Assembly (NCBI RefSeq): GCF_031851795.1
Contig: NZ_CP134696.1
Coordinates: 6,510,001 to 6,574,000 of the forward strand
Length of the DNA: 64,000 nucleotides
Direction: 5' to 3'
Source: Pontibacter sp. G13
GTDB taxonomy: Bacteria > Bacteroidota > Bacteroidia > J057
Shown here: one piece after another, positions 24,609 through 33,424 of the stretch
How the letters are laid out: every line of letters starts with the position of its first letter
Numbering within the stretch: position 1 is the stretch's first letter
The notes under the pieces: model-generated
What the model was told of the DNA's origin: nothing
What the model saw: only the letters and a program-made list of their open reading frames with translations
Database searches by the model: none
Made by a program: the position numbers and the translations under genes

Positions 24609-26309
24609 ATGCATCAATTAGATTGGTTGATTCTGATCGGTTTTCTGGCCTACACCCTGTGGGACGGGATGCGACCGAAAGGGGGAAAGGCCACATTGTC
24701 CCAGCAATTGCTTGCCGATCGGAGCATGAAAGGCTGGGCGGTGGGACTCTCCGTCATGGCCACTCAGGCTTCCGCGATTACATTCATCGGGACCACGGGA
24801 TTGGCCTTCATGCAGGATATGCGCTTTGTCCAGGTGTATCTGGCGGTACCAGTCGCCATGATTATCCTATCCGTGACGTTGGTTCCCCTGTTTCAGCGGT
24901 CCGGCGTTACGACTGCCTATGAGGCGCTTGAAGGCCGGTTTGGATTGTCCACGCGACTGCTGACCAGCTTCATGTTCCTGTTGAGTCGTGGCGCGTCGCT
25001 TGGGATCACCATTGCGGCACCTGCCTATGTACTGGCGATCATTCTCGGGATCAAGCTCTGGGTGACCATCCTGATCATCGGATTCGTTGCGACCGTCTAC
25101 ACGATGTTTGGGGGGATTGCAGGGGTGATCCGGACTGACATCAAACAGATGATCCTGATGTTGTTTGGGCTAGTCTTCTGTTTTGGCTGGATTTGGTGGA
25201 AATTACCTTCGGAGGTATCCACGATAGATGCACTCAAGCTGGCTGGCGTATCGGGAAAGCTTTCCACCATCGACTTTCATTTCGACCTCCGGGACAAGTA
25301 CAATGTCTGGAGCGGCCTCATTGCGGGAACCTTCCTGATGCTTTCCTATTTTGGCGCAGATCAATCGCAAGTGCAGCGCTACCTGAGTGCCAAAACCCTG
25401 ACGGATGCGCGTTCCTCCCTCATGATGTCCGCGATCTTCAAGGTGCCCATGCAGTTTTTCATTCTTCTGCTGGGAGCGTTGATGTTTGTCTTTTTCATAT
25501 TTGAGGACCGCCCGCTCTTGTTTTGGCCCGATGCTTCGATGGAATCCTCTGAAGTATGGAGTGAGGCCTATGAATCCCTACAGGACAATCGGCGATCCGC
25601 CGCCTACGAATACCTCGAAAATCCAGCTGACGCCGCCGCACGCAATGATTTTCTCTCCTCCAATACACAGATCGACCTCCTTCGGAAACAGGAGCTTCAG
25701 CAGATTAGCCAAGATACCGGCAAGCACCGAGACGACACCAACTATGTATTTCCCTGGTTTATCCTCCATCACCTGCCGATCGGGATGGTAGGTTTGATCA
25801 TTGCCGCGATCATGGCCGCGGCATTGTCCAGCATAGATTCCATGTTGAATTCACTGGCGACCTCCTCGGTCATCGATTGGTACCGGAGACTCCACACCCA
25901 TGAGCGTTCCGATACCCATTACCTGCTCGCTACGAGATGGGCAACGGCTTTGTGGGGGATATTTGCGACGGTGGTGGCGATGGCATTTGGAGAGACTGAG
26001 TCCATCGTGGAGTTGGTGAATATCTTGGGCAGCTATTTCTATGGACCGATTCTGGGAGTATTTGCGCTGCTCTGGATTCCACGTGCCAATCAGAAGGGTG
26101 CGCTGTGGGGCCTGATGGTAGGATTGGGGGCGGTAATTCTGGTAGGAGGGATACACGTCGGTTGCGAATCCGGACAGTTTGCCTTCTTCTGGCCGATGAC
26201 ACACGTGCCTCCCTCCTACGAACCCTATATCCAATATCTGTGGCTCAACCCCATTGGGGTGTTGGTGACGATTGTGGTAGGGGCATTATTCGCGCTCCGT
26301 CGGAAATAG
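24609..26309 (+). CDS. Sodium:solute symporter (SSS family)
   Basis: Inner-membrane transporter of 566 aa with about 13-14 hydrophobic helices, coupling Na+ entry to solute uptake. Family features include SVMATQASAITFIGTTG near the N-terminus (sodium-site helix), LSYFGADQSQVQRYLSAKT, and IAAIMAAALSSIDSMLNSLATSSVIDWYRR. A hydrophilic insertion of about 75 residues (around 300-375, charged, low homology) interrupts the membrane core, as in sugar and iodide-like SSS subgroups. The start MHQLDWLIL at 24609 is chosen; the 21 upstream in-frame residues contain the promoter. Substrate unknown. The 3' end overlaps the convergent thioredoxin gene by 24 bases. Confidence 0.9.
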   Translation: MHQLDWLILIGFLAYTLWDGMRPKGGKATLSQQLLADRSMKGWAVGLSVMATQASAITFIGTTGLAFMQDMRFVQVYLAVPVAMIILSVTLVPLFQRSGVTTAYEALEGRFGLSTRLLTSFMFLLSRGASLGITIAAPAYVLAIILGIKLWVTILIIGFVATVYTMFGGIAGVIRTDIKQMILMLFGLVFCFGWIWWKLPSEVSTIDALKLAGVSGKLSTIDFHFDLRDKYNVWSGLIAGTFLMLSYFGADQSQVQRYLSAKTLTDARSSLMMSAIFKVPMQFFILLLGALMFVFFIFEDRPLLFWPDASMESSEVWSEAYESLQDNRRSAAYEYLENPADAAARNDFLSSNTQIDLLRKQELQQISQDTGKHRDDTNYVFPWFILHHLPIGMVGLIIAAIMAAALSSIDSMLNSLATSSVIDWYRRLHTHERSDTHYLLATRWATALWGIFATVVAMAFGETESIVELVNILGSYFYGPILGVFALLWIPRANQKGALWGLMVGLGAVILVGGIHVGCESGQFAFFWPMTHVPPSYEPYIQYLWLNPIGVLVTIVVGALFALRRK

Positions 26310-27179
26310 GGGAGTGGGGTGGATTCGATTCAACTCCAGCTTGATGCGATCTCCAAATTTCTCTGAGGCATCATATCCTTCATGGCGGTACCGTACCACG
26401 CCGGCCGTATCGATCAGCATGAGCGAGGGTACACCTTTGATTGCCCAAGTCCCAGGGTTGAAGTCTGGAGAAATCTCATGGAATGCAGGAAGCTCTGGGT
26501 GATGAACGTCCAGGTACGCCTTGGCTGAAGGGATGGAATCGACCAATGCCGTGGAAGTATACCAAGCGAATTGTACGGTGGTGTCTTGGGACAAATCCGC
26601 ATACAAAGCCGCCATTTCATCCATCTGCTGGTGACATGCCCGGTCTCGGGTAACCCACAGATTGAGAACTACCGTCTTGCCTTTCCAGTCTTCCAAGGAC
26701 ACTTCCTGACCGTGTAGGTCTGTCAAGGACAACTCCGGAGCTGCCTGATTGACGGTTTTGCCCAATAGGTTTTGGAGCATCTCAGGCAAGAGCGAGGCTC
26801 CATACAATCCAAATCCCGCCGATGCAGCCAAAGCTACCCCCAATCTAATCGCCCAAGCTGGCTCCTTCCAGATTTTTCCCGCTAGCAATCCCAAGAGAGA
26901 GCCCCCGTATGCGGCTGCAGGAAGTGCGGCGGCGGCGGGATTGGTACGAATCGTCAGCAGGAAAATCGCAAACCATGAGGAAAGCAGGAGCCATTGAGGG
27001 ATGAGGTTGGCGGGATTGGCGCGTCCACGGAAAAATCCGATGAGGGTCGCGCCGAATAAGGCGATGAGGAAGGCTGTCACGAATCCTGCCTGAACTTGAC
27101 CCGTCAGGGAGGCGATCAACAGCACGAGCCCGAGGGCCACATCTATGAGAATATGTTTGATTTTGGGTTCCAATGCCAT
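26286..27179 (-). CDS. Membrane-anchored TlpA-like thioredoxin with a DxxC active site
   Basis: Protein of 297 aa: four or five hydrophobic helices in the first 135 residues, then a TlpA/AhpC-TSA type thioredoxin domain facing the periplasm (AAPELSLTDLHGQEVSLEDWKGKTVVLNLW, cis-proline motif GVPSLMLID). Where thioredoxins have WCxxC, this sequence reads TRDRAC: Asp179 replaces the first cysteine and only Cys182 remains. It therefore cannot act as a dithiol oxidoreductase in the ordinary way and may be a monothiol reductase or a binding module. The ATG at 27179 is supported by the -7 box at 27199-27206. Convergent with the symporter. Confidence 0.82.
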   Translation of the reverse strand: MALEPKIKHILIDVALGLVLLIASLTGQVQAGFVTAFLIALFGATLIGFFRGRANPANLIPQWLLLSSWFAIFLLTIRTNPAAAALPAAAYGGSLLGLLAGKIWKEPAWAIRLGVALAASAGFGLYGASLLPEMLQNLLGKTVNQAAPELSLTDLHGQEVSLEDWKGKTVVLNLWVTRDRACHQQMDEMAALYADLSQDTTVQFAWYTSTALVDSIPSAKAYLDVHHPELPAFHEISPDFNPGTWAIKGVPSLMLIDTAGVVRYRHEGYDASEKFGDRIKLELNRIHPTPLFPTERE

Positions 27180-27198
27180 GAGGTGAATGATTGTGGCA

Positions 27199-27206
27199 CA
27201 AAGATA
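27199..27206 (-). promoter_or_regulatory. Candidate -7 box for the TlpA-like gene
   Basis: Minus-strand TATCTTTG, a full TAnnTTTG match, predicting a leader of about 14 bases. It supports the start codon at 27179 over an in-frame ATG at 27212. Confidence 0.45.
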
Positions 27207-27212
27207 GGACAT

Positions 27213-27452
27213 CGTCGGATTTCTGCTGGAATTCAGAAAAAAATGACACCCGATTTCGCTTCCGGATTTGGGAATGAATGAGGGTTCGTTGAAATAAATT
27301 CACCCATGAAACCGGTTGCAAACAATTATTTTAAAAATATTCTCCTGAAATTCAATTAGTTATAAAAAAGAACATATATAAATATGTATATGTGTTATTT
27401 TTTTCCCATATTGCATATGTCAAGTAAACAAAGGACCAACAAAAGAGGCATA
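27213..27452. other. AT-rich upstream region of the DUF4212/symporter operon
   Basis: No gene on either strand apart from the 37-codon reading frame listed separately. The segment 27320-27416 is strongly AT-rich with short T and A tracts and is the likely promoter zone for the downstream operon, but no clear TAnnTTTG box is present. Confidence 0.4.
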
Positions 27453-27530
27453 CTACTACCTACTACTACTTTTTCTACTGCCGCTTTTTTTTCGACTACA
27501 CTGCTTTTTTGGTCATCTGTTCTCGCTTAA
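27417..27530 (+). CDS. Candidate 37-aa leader or small membrane peptide
   Basis: ATG at 27417 opens a short frame ending TAA at 27528-27530. The peptide has a basic start (SSKQRTNKRG) and a hydrophobic, Thr/Leu/Phe-rich remainder ending FWSSVLA, like a signal or single-span membrane peptide. Its middle is encoded by CTAC repeats (LLPTTT), and those repeats continue beyond its stop, so the repeats may not be there for coding. It lies 275 bases before the DUF4212 gene. A real peptide is possible but unproven. Confidence 0.25.
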   Translation: MSSKQRTNKRGILLPTTTFSTAAFFSTTLLFWSSVLA

Positions 27531-27764
27531 TCTTTCAGATGGCCGTTTGACTACTTTGCTTTTTAAGACTACTACCTCGGTTCTACTTGCTTGCAGCTTA
27601 TTGACATACTGTTTTCGATAGACTACTGGTGCTCTACTACTCAAACTTAGGGACTACTACACTACTCGCGCCAAGTTATTCGCGATATCGAAGACAGTTT
27701 AGGGATCGATTAACCGTTACGTTTCCATTCCCATCAGACTACTACTCGGGATACACTGGACTAC
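27453..27764 (+). repeat. CTAC/GACTAC repeat-rich 5' region
   Basis: Within 312 bases the tetramer CTAC occurs 20 times and its complement GTAG not at all. Seven copies extend to GACTAC (starting at 27494, 27549, 27567, 27621, 27652, 27737 and 27759), several to GACTACTAC. Two units, at 27494 and 27549, continue similarly as GACTACnnTGCTTTTT. Spacing is irregular, so this is not a simple tandem repeat. The strand bias suggests single-stranded function in the leader RNA of the DUF4212/symporter operon. Confidence 0.8.
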
Positions 27765-27778
27765 TTAGGAAACGTAAC
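27716..27778 (+). promoter_or_regulatory. Long-loop 11-bp inverted repeat in the operon leader
   Basis: gttacgtttcc (27716-27726) is exactly complementary to ggaaacgtaac (27768-27778). The 41-base loop carries two GACTAC motifs. It ends 26 bases before the DUF4212 start codon, so it could be an RNA stem presenting the motifs or a DNA operator. Confidence 0.6.
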
Positions 27779-27804
27779 ATGCGTATCACGCAAACTATTC
27801 GTTC

Positions 27805-28059
27805 ATGATTCGACCATCGAATGCTTATTGGAGAACCAACCTGTTATACATGGTGGTTCTCCTTTTTATTTGGTTCGCGGTGTCTTTGGGTGCCGGCGTC
27901 CTCTTTGTCGACCAACTCGACCAATTCTCCATCGGAGGCTTCAAGCTGGGATTCTGGATGGCTCAGCAAGGCTCAATCTACGTATTCGTAGCCTTGATCT
28001 TCATCTATGTATTCCTCATGAATCGCCTCGACAAGAAACACGGCGTGGATGAATCCTAG
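27805..28059 (+). CDS. DUF4212 small subunit of sodium/solute symporter
   Basis: Membrane protein of 84 aa with two hydrophobic helices (MVVLLFIWFAVSLGAGVLF and GSIYVFVALIFIYVFLMNRL) and the family signature AYWRTN near the start. DUF4212 proteins are encoded directly before large SSS symporters of the acetate/carboxylate type and are thought to be a partner subunit. A nine-codon frame starting at 27779 ends in TGA overlapping this ATG, so coupling with a tiny upstream peptide is possible. The long unusual leader suggests post-transcriptional control. Confidence 0.92.
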   Translation: MIRPSNAYWRTNLLYMVVLLFIWFAVSLGAGVLFVDQLDQFSIGGFKLGFWMAQQGSIYVFVALIFIYVFLMNRLDKKHGVDES

Positions 28060-28103: not shown

Positions 28104-29810
28104 ATGTCTATAGAACTACTCACCTACCTGCTGGTCGGGGCTACCTTCCTATTGTATATCGGGATTGCGATATGGTCCCGCGCCTCCTCGACCAAAGATT
28201 TTTATGTTGCTGGTGGCGGTGTCTCCCCACTCGCCAATGGCATGGCCACTGCCGCAGACTGGATGTCCGCGGCTTCCTTTATTTCCATGGCGGGATTGAT
28301 CTCCGCGGGAGGACGTGATGGCTCCAAATTCCTCATGGGCTGGACAGGCGGATATGTGTTGCTGGCCTTGCTGCTGGCTCCCTACCTCAGAAAATTCGGA
28401 AAATTCACCGTGCCGGACTTCATTGGCGATCGCTACGAAAGCTCCATTGCTAGGGTCGTGGCGGTCATTTGCGCGATATTCGTTTCCTTTACCTATGTCG
28501 CTGGTCAAATGCGTGGGGTAGGGGTGGTGTTTTCTCGATTCCTCGATATCCCCATCGAATACGGCGTGGTCGTAGGCATGATCATCGTCTTCTTCTATGC
28601 AGTTCTGGGCGGTATGAAAGGCATCACTTATACACAGGTCGCCCAATACTGCATCCTCATCTTTGCATTCATGGTACCCGCCATCTATATCTCAATCCTG
28701 ATGACTGGGCAAGTCCTCCCCCAGATTGGATTCGGATCTACCCTCAATGACGGCTCGGGTACATACCTCCTAGACAAGCTCGACGGCCTCCATCAAGAGT
28801 TGGGATTTGCCGCCTACACGGCGGGAACAATGTCCACGCAGGACCTATTCTGTGTGACGGCTGCCCTCATGTTCGGGACCGCCGGACTGCCCCATGTCAT
28901 CGTGCGATTCTTCACGGTCCCCAAAGTACGCGATGCGAGACTCTCGGCTGGTTATGCGCTGGTCTTTATCGCGATCCTGTACACGACAGCTCCTGCGGTG
29001 GCGGCTTTTGCGCGTACCAATCTCATCCAGTCGGTTTCGGGCGTGGAACTGACGGAGTTGCCGGGCTGGGTCAAAAGCTGGGCCTCGACCGGATTGATCT
29101 CCATCGAGGACAAAAACGGCGATGGCAAGGTGGATTTTCTCGCAGATCCTGCCGCCAATGAACTGATCTTCGACAAGGACATCATCACCCTCGCCAATCC
29201 CGAAATCGCCGAATTGCCCAATTGGGTCGTGGCACTCGTCGCGGCAGGAGGATTGGCCGCAGCACTTTCGACCGCAGCAGGACTCCTGTTGGTGATTTCC
29301 ACATCGGTTTCCCATGATCTGCTCAAACGGACGTTTATGCCGGAGATTACCGATCGGCAGGAATTGATGTATGCGCGGATGGCCGCAGCGGTTGCGGTAC
29401 TCGTAGCCGGATATTTCGGGATCAATCCCCCCGATTATGTGGCGGCTGTGGTTGCGCTGGCATTTGGATTGGCAGCAGCCTCCTTTTTTCCGGCGATCTT
29501 CCTCGGAATCTTCACCAAGCGGATCAATACGGCAGGAGCTGTCAGCGGAATGGTTTTCGGGCTGTTGGCGACCATTGCCTATATCCTCGTCTTCAAATTC
29601 GGGGTAGGTTTCGAATCCGTGGAAGCTGCGACCCCTTACCGATTCTGGGGTATCTCGCCGGAGGGATTCGGATTCGTGGCCATGATCCTCAATATGCTCG
29701 TGGCGGTCGTCGTGTCCCGGTTCACCCCACCTCCTTCTCCCGGTGTGCAGGCGATGGTCGAGCATATCCGAGTACCGAAAGGAGCGAGCGCGCCAGCAGA
29801 TATTCACTAG
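28104..29810 (+). CDS. Sodium/solute symporter, ActP/VC_2705-like (carboxylate uptake)
   Basis: Inner-membrane symporter of 568 aa with about 13 helices. The N-terminal part SSTKDFYVAGGGVSPLANGMATAADWMSAASFISMAG is typical of the acetate permease ActP and VC_2705 subgroup; FGTAGLPHVIVRFFTVPKVRDARLSAGYAL and AAALSTAAGLLLVISTSVSHDL are family hallmarks. A hydrophilic insert around 320-370 includes DKNGDGKVDF, an EF-hand-like calcium loop. Co-transcribed with the DUF4212 subunit 44 bases upstream and followed by a terminator. Substrate (acetate or another short carboxylate) is inferred from the subgroup. Confidence 0.92.
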   Translation: MSIELLTYLLVGATFLLYIGIAIWSRASSTKDFYVAGGGVSPLANGMATAADWMSAASFISMAGLISAGGRDGSKFLMGWTGGYVLLALLLAPYLRKFGKFTVPDFIGDRYESSIARVVAVICAIFVSFTYVAGQMRGVGVVFSRFLDIPIEYGVVVGMIIVFFYAVLGGMKGITYTQVAQYCILIFAFMVPAIYISILMTGQVLPQIGFGSTLNDGSGTYLLDKLDGLHQELGFAAYTAGTMSTQDLFCVTAALMFGTAGLPHVIVRFFTVPKVRDARLSAGYALVFIAILYTTAPAVAAFARTNLIQSVSGVELTELPGWVKSWASTGLISIEDKNGDGKVDFLADPAANELIFDKDIITLANPEIAELPNWVVALVAAGGLAAALSTAAGLLLVISTSVSHDLLKRTFMPEITDRQELMYARMAAAVAVLVAGYFGINPPDYVAAVVALAFGLAAASFFPAIFLGIFTKRINTAGAVSGMVFGLLATIAYILVFKFGVGFESVEAATPYRFWGISPEGFGFVAMILNMLVAVVVSRFTPPPSPGVQAMVEHIRVPKGASAPADIH

Positions 29811-30473: not shown

Positions 30474-30653
30474 ATGAAGCGGAAACGACTATTTGGCATC
30501 GCCATCCTGTTCCTATTCCTGTTCAATGACCCCCTGCTGCGCCTGTTTTGCGGCGATGGGATGGTCATGGGAATTCCTGTGGCGTTTGTCTCGATCTTCC
30601 TGTTGTGGATCGGGTTGATCTCCATGTTGATCTTCTTGACGGAACGCACATGA
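30474..30653 (+). CDS. Small membrane protein upstream of symporter-kinase
   Basis: Protein of 59 aa with two hydrophobic helices (LFGIAILFLFLFNDPLLRLF and PVAFVSIFLLWIGLISMLIFL). Its TGA overlaps the start of the following kinase (ATGA at 30650-30653), indicating translational coupling. The position matches CbrX, the small protein encoded just ahead of cbrA in Pseudomonas, though I cannot show sequence homology. The start ATG at 30474 follows the repeat island; longer in-frame extension would run through the repeat and is not credible. Confidence 0.75.
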   Translation: MKRKRLFGIAILFLFLFNDPLLRLFCGDGMVMGIPVAFVSIFLLWIGLISMLIFLTERT

Positions 30654-33424
30654 ATTTTTGGATCTTGCTATTGGCCGGCATGGCCTATCTGGGCGGACTT
30701 TTTGCCTTGGCGTACTGGGTCGATCGTATGGCCAAGGGCGGCAAGCATTGGATCAACAATCCGTATGTCTATGCGTTGTCGCTGGCCGTGTTTTGCTCGG
30801 CTTGGACCTTTTATGGCGGCATCGGATATGCCCGAACGCATGGGCTGGAGTTTCTGGCGATTTTCATGGGAGTGTCCGTTTCTGCGCCCCTCTGGTATAC
30901 CCTCTTGCGAAAGATGATCGCCATCAGCCGGACGCTTCACATCGCGTCCATCGCGGACTTCCTGTCTTCGAGGTACGGCAAAAATGCATGGCTTGGGGCG
31001 TTGGTGACGATGATTTGCATCATGGGGATGGTTCCGTATATCGCGCTGCAATTGAAGGCCATTGCGGCATCGTTTATGGTGCTGGGTTCCATTCATCCCG
31101 ATCCTGAGCAGATTGCCCTGGCCGACCCTGAATTTCGGGGGACGACCTTGCAGGTGGCGATCATGTTGGCGGTGTTCACGATCCTGTTTGGCGCCCGCAA
31201 AGTGGATACCAGCGAACGTCACGAGGGCCTTGTGGGCGCCATTGCCTTTGAATCTGTCGTCAAGCTGCTGGCCGTGCTGGCCGTGGGGATTTTTGTGGTA
31301 TTCAGGCTGTTTGACAATCCTGCTGCACTGTTTGCGCAAGCCCAGACCCATCCAGATCTGGCGGCCCTCTTCGATCTTGACCCGGATCGTTCATGGACCT
31401 GGTTCTGGCTGATGTTCACTTCTGGATGTACCTTCCTGCTGCTTCCCCGTCAATTTCATATGGCGGTCGTAGAAAACATGAACCCCAAGCATGTCCGCAG
31501 GGCGATCTGGCTCTTTCCGCTCTATCTGCTCCTGATCAATCTCTTTGTCTTTCCGATCGCCTTGGGAGGTGCATTGACACCTGGCCTAGAGGATATGGAC
31601 CCCGATCTTTACATCTTGGGCATTCCGATGATGCATGGCAAGGCTGGGCTACTGTTGCTGGTATTTCTGGGGGGACTTTCCGCCTCCAGCGGGATGGTGA
31701 TCGTGAGTACGATTGCCCTCAGTACGATGATCGGCAACCAGATTGTGATTCCTTTGCTGTTGAGATATTCGATCAAGGACCCCGGAGAGCGACCCGATCT
31801 TTCGGAAGTGCTATTGAAAGTCCGGTGGGTGACGATGATCGTGATTTTGGGCTTGGCCTATGGGTTTTTCCTGATCAGCGGACAAGCCAAGACCTTGATG
31901 TCCATTGGATTGACCTCTTTTCTGGCAATTGCCCAATTGGCGCCTTCTACGTTTGGCGGGATGTTTTGGCGAGATGGGACCCGAAAGGGCGCTTTTGCGG
32001 GATTGATTGGCGGGGTGCTGGTGTGGTTGTACACATTGCCCTTTGCCAATCTCGTGGAGTCTGGCCTATTCGATCCTTCGATTTTGACGGAAGGGCCTTT
32101 CGGAATTTCTTGGCTTCGGCCTTATGCCTTCATGGGCTTGGAGGGGATGGCCCCGATTCCGCATGCCGCTTTTTGGAGCCTTTTTGTCAATGTCTTGCTG
32201 TACGTAGGCGTGAGCTTGATTGCCCGGCCTACCATGTTGGAGTTTAGTCAGGCAGATGTCTTTGTCAATATCGACCGCTACAACCGCGGGTTGGTGGAGC
32301 CTTATCTACGGCCAACGGCCCGTCGAGAGGAAATGCTTCAGCTGCTTCAGCGATTCTTGGGACCCAATCGGACCGAGCAGGTACTCAAAGAATATCGAGC
32401 TTCGGGTAGGGGCGAGGACTTGACCGAGACGATCGCTTCTCCTGAATTGATCCAATGGGTCGAGCGACAATTGACTGGCGCGGTAGGTGCGTCTTCGGCC
32501 CGGCTGTTGATCTCGTCCTTTGTGCAGGAAGAAAATCCCAGTTTGAGGGAAGTGATGGCGGCCTTGGACGAGACCCAGCAGATTTTGGCCTATAGCCGTC
32601 AGATTGAGCGCAAGTCCGAAGAACTCCAGCGAACCAGTGAAAGACTTTCGCAGGCCAACAACCGCCTCCGGGAGATGGATACGCTCAAGAATGAATTTAT
32701 CACGACCGTCACGCACGAATTGCGCACCCCGATCACTTCCATCCGGGCACTTGCGAATATCCTCTACGAAACACCGGGACTTCCTCAAGAAAAAAGCCAT
32801 GAATTCCTCGGCATCATCGTGAGCGAGAGCGAGCGGATTTCCCGATTGATCAATCAGGTGCTAGACCTCGAGAAGATGGAATCGGGATTGGCGGAGCTCC
32901 ATTTGACACAAGTGGATATGGTTCAGGTGGTTCAGAATTCCATCGATGGAATCATCGGAATCTGTGAGGAACGGGATATCGAGCTTGTGGAAAACCTACC
33001 GAGCGAGATGCCGAGATTGCGCGGGGACCGAGATCGAATCCAGCAAGTTGTGGTCAATCTTCTGTCCAATGCCGTCAAGTTCTGTAATGAAGAAAACGGC
33101 AGGATTACTGTGACGCTTGAGGAGCAAGATGGACAGGCGGTCTTGCAGGTGGCCGACAATGGAGCGGGGATGCCCAAGGAGGTACAGACCTATATTTTCG
33201 ATAAGTTTGCCCAATTTACGGATTCGGGACGCGGAGGGCGAAAACATGGTAGTGGACTGGGGCTCAGTATCTCTTGGCGAATTGTCCGGATGCACAAAGG
33301 CCGGATTTATGTGAAAAGCGAGCCCGGCGAGGGAGCTACCTTCTTTGTGCATTTGCCGATCGAGGAAGGGTCTGTGAAGCCTATGGTGACTCCTTCTTAC
33401 AAGCGGATAGAGGAGGAAAATTGA
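30650..33424 (+). CDS. Sodium/solute symporter-histidine kinase fusion (CbrA-like)
   Basis: Protein of 924 aa. Residues about 1-560 are an SSS-type membrane domain with 12-13 helices (SLAVFCSAWTFYGGIGYARTHG, GGLSASSGMVIVSTIALSTMIGNQ). After a linker (VNIDRYNRGLVEPYLRP) and a coiled coil (about 640-680) comes a complete kinase: His689 in THELRTPITS, N-box NLLSNAVKF, G1 ADNGAGMPKE, G2 HGSGLGLSIS. CbrA-type proteins sense carbon or amino-acid supply, and the membrane part may itself carry substrate. Its partner is probably the receiver protein at 33532. Together with the DUF4212/symporter operon it makes an uptake-and-sensing module. Confidence 0.93.
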   Translation: MNFWILLLAGMAYLGGLFALAYWVDRMAKGGKHWINNPYVYALSLAVFCSAWTFYGGIGYARTHGLEFLAIFMGVSVSAPLWYTLLRKMIAISRTLHIASIADFLSSRYGKNAWLGALVTMICIMGMVPYIALQLKAIAASFMVLGSIHPDPEQIALADPEFRGTTLQVAIMLAVFTILFGARKVDTSERHEGLVGAIAFESVVKLLAVLAVGIFVVFRLFDNPAALFAQAQTHPDLAALFDLDPDRSWTWFWLMFTSGCTFLLLPRQFHMAVVENMNPKHVRRAIWLFPLYLLLINLFVFPIALGGALTPGLEDMDPDLYILGIPMMHGKAGLLLLVFLGGLSASSGMVIVSTIALSTMIGNQIVIPLLLRYSIKDPGERPDLSEVLLKVRWVTMIVILGLAYGFFLISGQAKTLMSIGLTSFLAIAQLAPSTFGGMFWRDGTRKGAFAGLIGGVLVWLYTLPFANLVESGLFDPSILTEGPFGISWLRPYAFMGLEGMAPIPHAAFWSLFVNVLLYVGVSLIARPTMLEFSQADVFVNIDRYNRGLVEPYLRPTARREEMLQLLQRFLGPNRTEQVLKEYRASGRGEDLTETIASPELIQWVERQLTGAVGASSARLLISSFVQEENPSLREVMAALDETQQILAYSRQIERKSEELQRTSERLSQANNRLREMDTLKNEFITTVTHELRTPITSIRALANILYETPGLPQEKSHEFLGIIVSESERISRLINQVLDLEKMESGLAELHLTQVDMVQVVQNSIDGIIGICEERDIELVENLPSEMPRLRGDRDRIQQVVVNLLSNAVKFCNEENGRITVTLEEQDGQAVLQVADNGAGMPKEVQTYIFDKFAQFTDSGRGGRKHGSGLGLSISWRIVRMHKGRIYVKSEPGEGATFFVHLPIEEGSVKPMVTPSYKRIEEEN

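Follow-up and report, generated by a model that had tools for sequence, protein, structure and literature searches.

A dense CTAC array in the leader of a DUF4212/sodium symporter operon as a probable multi-site target of two tRNA-like small RNAs

What is the role of twenty copies of a single tetramer, all on one strand, ahead of a transporter operon? In the 64,000-nucleotide stretch of the Pontibacter sp. G13 genome analyzed here (the window), the segment at 27453..27764 on the plus strand contains 20 CTAC and no GTAG, together with seven GACTAC and seven CTACTAC. A first-pass annotation made from the sequence alone had reported these CTAC, GTAG and GACTAC counts and an irregular spacing, and our recount reproduced both, with gaps of 55, 18, 54, 31, 85 and 22 nt between successive GACTAC motifs. 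In 2000 dinucleotide-shuffled versions of this 312-base segment, the means were 6.7 CTAC (maximum 14) and 0.7 GACTAC (maximum 6), and the densest one-strand CTAC cluster elsewhere in the window held seven copies per 312 bases.

The upstream neighbour of the array segment is a thioredoxin-like minus-strand gene (26286-27212). Downstream of it, on the plus strand, are the genes for an 84-aa DUF4212 protein (27805..28059; PF13937, 7e-34) and a 568-aa sodium:solute symporter of the SSF family (28104..29810; PF00474, 7e-50). The presumed transcribed leader of this operon covers 27420..27804 on the plus strand, with a putative start preceded by an AT-rich region at 27360-27420. A CATATTG box near 27409 resembles the TATATTG box found upstream of DUF4212 in the related genome G009, and the canonical TAnnTTTG was not found upstream of the leader. 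Downstream of the array is a short frame of nine codons, MRITQTIRS (27779..27808, plus strand), with an SD-like AGGAA 8 nt upstream of it; its stop codon overlaps the DUF4212 start as ATGA, which suggests translational coupling. Since no frame spans the array, a coding explanation was rejected, in agreement with the earlier view that coding content is not its cause. Further downstream, at 30548-33424, the window encodes a large sensor histidine kinase (HisKA and HATPase_c at the C-terminus) whose long N-terminal region may resemble SLC5, as in CrbS; it is a possible transcriptional regulator of the symporter operon.

The array was not encountered a second time. Pattern searches of the 7.67-Mb genome, with 57 stretches around matches fetched, yielded at most seven CTAC per 300 bases and no second array, and BLAST and pattern searches detected no paralogous arrays in this genome. 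Among the matches inspected in genomes of the same family, all were either coding or resembled microsatellites, and they were rejected. The first-pass annotation had named conserved arrays upstream of homologous DUF4212 genes in related genomes as support; in our sample of DUF4212 leaders (13 from relatives and the own genome, 80 from GTDB genomes) no other leader carried one (0/92), and the excess of CTAC over GTAG was at most three in all 92. Because of this absence, the array appears lineage-specific as far as can be seen in the searched genomes, which included no other species of the genus. Known classes of leader elements did not account for it either: an Rfam scan of the window gave 0 matches, and neither CsrA/Rsm-type sites (GGA in loops) nor TRAP-type sites (regular GAG/UAG triplets) describe the array, because its enriched motif is CTAC/ACTACT with irregular spacing.

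A candidate partner was reached by following the few intergenic GACTACTAC sites in the genome. Two small RNA genes, here called RNA1 and RNA2, lie in tandem at C1:2762888-2763388 on the minus strand, about 3.8 Mb from the leader. Their promoter boxes, TATATTTG and TACATTTG, are of the TAnnTTTG, sigma-ABfr type that is canonical for Bacteroidota, and each gene has a terminator, as expected of separate genes for trans-encoded small RNAs. Both RNAs have a tRNA-like T-arm (GAGG-TTCAAGT-CCTC and GAAGG-TTCGACT-CCTTC) closed by an acceptor-like stem. This stem comprises 8 bp in RNA2 and its clear relatives and is weaker in RNA1, where about seven pairs including G-U were read from the predicted fold. 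An acceptor stem stacked on a T-arm with a TTCRANY loop, forming an 8+5 bp helix in the clear copies, is a tRNA feature; ARAGORN called no tRNA at RNA1 or RNA2, and no Rfam covariance model matched the tRNA-like RNAs. The 13-bp acceptor/T helix was examined in an alignment that combined six tailed copies with two tail-less relatives and left out RNA1; its rows had been excised from longer RNAs and assembled manually. Five pairs of the helix showed changes in both partners, and 99% of cells were paired. Covariation at these five pairs points to an RNA under selection. The T-arm and acceptor are followed by a tail, CGAGUAGUAGUAG(UAG)UCC (conserved part GUAGUAGUAGUCC; also GAGUAGUAGUAG(UAG)UCC), and then by a unique U-rich stretch before the terminator. 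In the predicted full-length RNAs the tails are partly paired.

The leader complements the shared tail at no fewer than seven sites of 8-11 nt, for instance at the 9-nt site GACTACTAC (27567..27575, plus strand, as are all leader sites below). Beyond these repeats, each RNA has a private match. For RNA1, the segment GGACCAACAAAAGAGG-CAT-ACTACTACCTACTACTACT at 27433..27470 is a contiguous complement of the tail, and the 12-mer GGACCAACAAAA at 27433-27444, beside its CTAC run, is the exact complement of an RNA1-private stretch. For RNA2, the 12-mer GGGATCGATTAA at 27702..27713 is the exact complement of the RNA2-specific UUAAUCGAUCCC and lies upstream of, and in order with, GACTACTACTCG at 27737..27748, a site for the tail of RNA2 (or RNA1); in addition, GGACTACTACACTACTCGCG at 27651..27670 complements RNA2's conserved tail CGCGAGUAGUAGUAGUCC over its full 18 nt, leaving a 2-nt bulge. 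Both private 12-mers occur in the antiparallel order required for pairing. The real leader contains two non-repeat matches of 12 nt or longer, whereas among 1000 shuffled leaders a single one had any; genome-wide, GGACCAACAAAA is limited to six occurrences. The predicted ddG between the RNA1 tail and leader positions 27420-27500 is -29.9 kcal/mol. When 8978 windows of fetched genome DNA were scanned, the leader window was the best non-self match of RNA1 (z -7.4), and for RNA2 the best leader window (z -4.2) does not stand out clearly from the distribution's tail. The private 12-mers with the repeats, the ddG and the rank for RNA1 together exceed the complementarity expected by chance, as should be the case for the target of a trans-encoded small RNA. 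Among the functions initially listed for the array, binding of a small RNA with GUAGUAG thus gained support, in the form of two tandem tRNA-like RNAs with tails complementary both to the array and to the private 12-mers.

Our main reading, to which we assign a probability of about 0.72, is that the array belongs to the 5' leader of the DUF4212/sodium symporter mRNA and is a target with which RNA1 and RNA2 base-pair at multiple sites. Pairing between leader and small RNAs is well supported by the complementarity; we infer that all three are expressed and that pairing takes place in vivo. Four other accounts of the repeats have to be weighed against the same matches. Complementarity to the 790-loop region of 16S rRNA (GGACTAC, as in the 806R primer) was set aside, because such a match leaves the two private 12-mers unexplained. 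Binding of the array by a protein of the RRM, KH or cold-shock type that reads CUAC in loops would suit tetramers that are strand-biased, irregularly spaced and predicted to be single-stranded, but it explains neither the match of two private 12-mers to two RNAs nor the conserved tail of the partner, and we consider it very improbable. For RbpB, the known global RNA-binding protein of Bacteroides, the reported link is with a small RNA motif of 41 nt (PMC11697453). Even less credence is given to a DNA-level operator or origin element, composed of direct-repeat regulator sites or DnaA-trio-like repeats: the uniform orientation of the repeats is one that operator direct repeats can have, but their spacings are irregular and the RNA complementarity would go unexplained. 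Finally, the leader could hold a decayed inverted copy of the small RNA locus without any regulatory role, given that the private 12-mers and CTAC runs follow the order of the reverse complement of the tails and that the array is lineage-specific. This account is improbable as well, although less so than the protein: the tails alone are represented, with no match of 9 nt or longer to the tRNA-like bodies, sites for the two RNAs are interleaved with new inverted repeats, and twenty intact CTACs should not survive decay.

Three further loci in the genome carry related segments. A second SSF gene (C1:2333275, minus strand) has GACTACTAC 8 nt before its candidate ATG and is a possible second target, and a Reg_prop (two-component regulator propeller) gene at C1:3772693, also on the minus strand, has GACTACTACTT immediately before its ATG. 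The 3' UTR of a mandelate-racemase-like gene (C1:292486) contains GTAGTAGTAGTAGTCC just before its terminator in the same sense as the small RNA tails, and may represent a third tail-bearing RNA.

The predicted fold of the leader leaves most CTACs available for pairing, because the array is interleaved with inverted repeats: the mean unpaired probability was 0.81 for CTAC bases versus 0.47 for other leader bases. Four hairpins are predicted. H0 (AAAAG.GGCA / TGCC.CTTTT, 27441..27488) has a 28-nt loop with six CTAC, is followed by a T run and overlaps the RNA1 site; H1 (GGTCATCTG / CAGATGGCC, 27511..27544) is free of CTAC; and H2 (ACTGTTTTCGATA / TATCGAAGACAGT, 27608..27698) pairs 12 of 13 positions around a 65-nt loop with CTAC sites. 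H3 (27716..27778) consists of a perfect 11-bp stem, GTTACGTTTCC / GGAAACGTAAC, formed by 27716-27726 with 27768-27778 around a 41-nt loop that also contains CTAC sites; none of 300 shuffles reached an 11-bp stem. Its 3' arm covers the SD sequence AGGAA before the ATG at 27779, and in the free leader the ribosome site is predicted to be closed, with a probability of about 0.2 of being open.

These features suggest, with low confidence, how pairing might act. In the free leader, H3 would hide the SD sequence. RNA2, by pairing on either side of the left arm of H3 (at 27702-27713 and 27737-27748), might strain or open the hairpin and turn translation on, and the extended duplex with RNA1 near the 5' end might affect early termination at H0 or the stability of the transcript; several sites would allow graded, cooperative control. 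Given pairing, activation by RNA2 is our preferred guess, held tentatively because H3 stayed closed in in silico folding when the RNA2 sites were blocked singly or both, and ribosome-site opening rose from 0.22 to 0.44 only with the whole of 27702-27748 blocked. Close behind in probability, again given pairing, is that the extended RNA1 duplex brings about repression or decay. A different use of the same pairing would be a sponge, in which the tRNA-like RNAs are sequestered by the leader, or by part of it, which thereby controls their other targets without being controlled itself. With at least seven sites, each leader could titrate several RNA molecules, and sponges derived from tRNA spacers and mRNAs are known in E. 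coli (Lalaouna 2015, Miyakoshi 2015, both as summarized in PMC5286369). We nevertheless regard a sponge as quite unlikely, since the sites flank the hairpin that hides the ribosome site of the operon itself, which favours control of its own mRNA, and no convincing set of other targets is known.

The tailed RNAs, unlike the array, extend beyond this lineage. Homologues with the same tail were found in genomes G004 (three copies), G007 (two), G009 and G006, and the segment GAGTAGTAGTAGT within the tail shows no variation among the nine copies, which come from five genera, as expected of a conserved pairing segment. Strong matches of the covariance model R1 (>70 bits) among 395 genomes of the class occurred only in the tailed family, and the weaker matches, where inspected, look like T-arm-plus-terminator sites. 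Strain uniqueness, which had been set down as an argument against a function, therefore holds in part: the array is absent from other genera, and the tail is kept by their small RNA copies. The genomic context is also partly retained. An Ion_trans (voltage-gated channel-like) gene lies directly upstream of the tailed RNA genes on the same strand in G000, G004, G006 and G007, and this adjacency in four genera suggests a conserved channel/small-RNA locus; a gene for an M4 peptidase lies downstream of the RNA locus in G000 and G009. No equivalent target emerged when G004, G006, G007 and G009 were searched with their own tails (298-nt query), which returned the RNA genes only, all other matches having E of at least 0.49. 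A ACTACTACTACTAC site on contig C266 of G007 was rejected as a target, as no gene follows close downstream on that strand and the minus-strand gene upstream would carry the GUAG sense. A conserved target, which would be supporting rather than strictly required, was thus found neither among the DUF4212 leaders nor in these four genera, and the tail must have other targets there or another, older role. The literature search uncovered no report of a comparable tRNA-like small RNA from Bacteroidota, and no function was assigned to the family, with its relatives in other Bacteroidia, in the sources searched.

Tail-less tRNA-like RNAs also occur. Three tandem copies of about 109-117 nt are located in the own genome at C1:5110192-5110562, and similar RNAs are present in most genomes of the family. 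They have an 8-bp acceptor (CTGTAGGG/CCCTACAG), a 5-bp T-arm, a 4-bp D-arm, a 5-bp anticodon-like arm with the loop TGGTCTC and a long variable arm, and gave neither an Rfam match nor an ARAGORN tRNA call. Similar-looking T-arm/acceptor ends were seen at six loci in other families. Elsewhere in the own genome (C1:2932357-2932410), a long inverted repeat, TTTTTTTGTTGGTCCCAGTCTGC...GCAGACTGGGACCAACAAAAAAA, adjoins an apparent tRNA-Ser gene and repeated AAGCTTGCAAAACCT segments. A variant of the pairing model would make the leader a sensor of tRNA-like precursors that pairs only with the unprocessed 3' tail, so that removal of the tail switches the symporter operon. We consider this variant unlikely, albeit less so than the sponge; if true, a many-site, T-box-like, tail-reading leader would link an ion-channel locus to sodium-coupled uptake.

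Under the main reading, in which RNA1 and RNA2 pair with the array as a multi-site target, a tRNA-shaped small RNA family of Bacteroidota absent from Rfam would be coupled to an unusually dense repeated-site target. Hfq was not detected in the genome (PF17209 had no match, with positive controls in E. coli and B. subtilis), so the system does not qualify as an Hfq-dependent one by the presence of an encoded Hfq, and long and multiple pairing may stand in for this chaperone. Such a system would show a route to strong, graded antisense control in a bacterium without detectable Hfq. For a transporter operon beside a sensor kinase, the predictions are concrete as to which bases and which two RNAs are involved.

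Several known systems share parts of this arrangement. In T-box leaders, an mRNA leader pairs with a tRNA-shaped RNA via its anticodon and NCCA end, whereas the leader described here would pair with a 3' tail; Rfam detected no T-box in the window. Bacterial Y RNAs (YrlA) and other tRNA mimics are small RNAs with a tRNA-like T-arm module, as are RNA1 and RNA2. However, Rfam returned no YrlA hit for the tRNA-like RNAs, even with the E threshold relaxed to 5, and the neighbour of RNA1 and RNA2 is an ion channel gene instead of the Ro60 gene that accompanies YrlA. The leuZ 3'ETS of E. coli, a spacer of a tRNA transcript that acts on small RNAs (Lalaouna 2015, cited in PMC5286369), is similar in that the pairing segment is a 3' tail behind a tRNA-shaped body. 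The present RNAs differ in having a body that is no recognised tRNA, their own promoter and terminator, and an mRNA leader array as the partner. GibS and FopS of Bacteroides (multicopy; PMC11697453) are likewise sibling small RNAs of Bacteroidota with sigma-ABfr-type promoters and without Hfq; they are set apart by their description, which is not that of tRNA-like RNAs. In Staphylococcus aureus, RNAIII makes multiple contacts with the sbi, rot and hla leaders and opens a structure that hides the ribosome site in hla (PMC8383071). Here, too, the small RNA is encoded elsewhere and has more than one contact place in its target. In contrast to RNAIII, the present case combines at least seven repeats of one short motif with one private site per sibling RNA, the RNAs are tRNA-like, and Hfq was not found. 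The system lies outside any Rfam family and would work in the manner of known small RNA control of leaders, such as that of RNAIII on hla or sbi.
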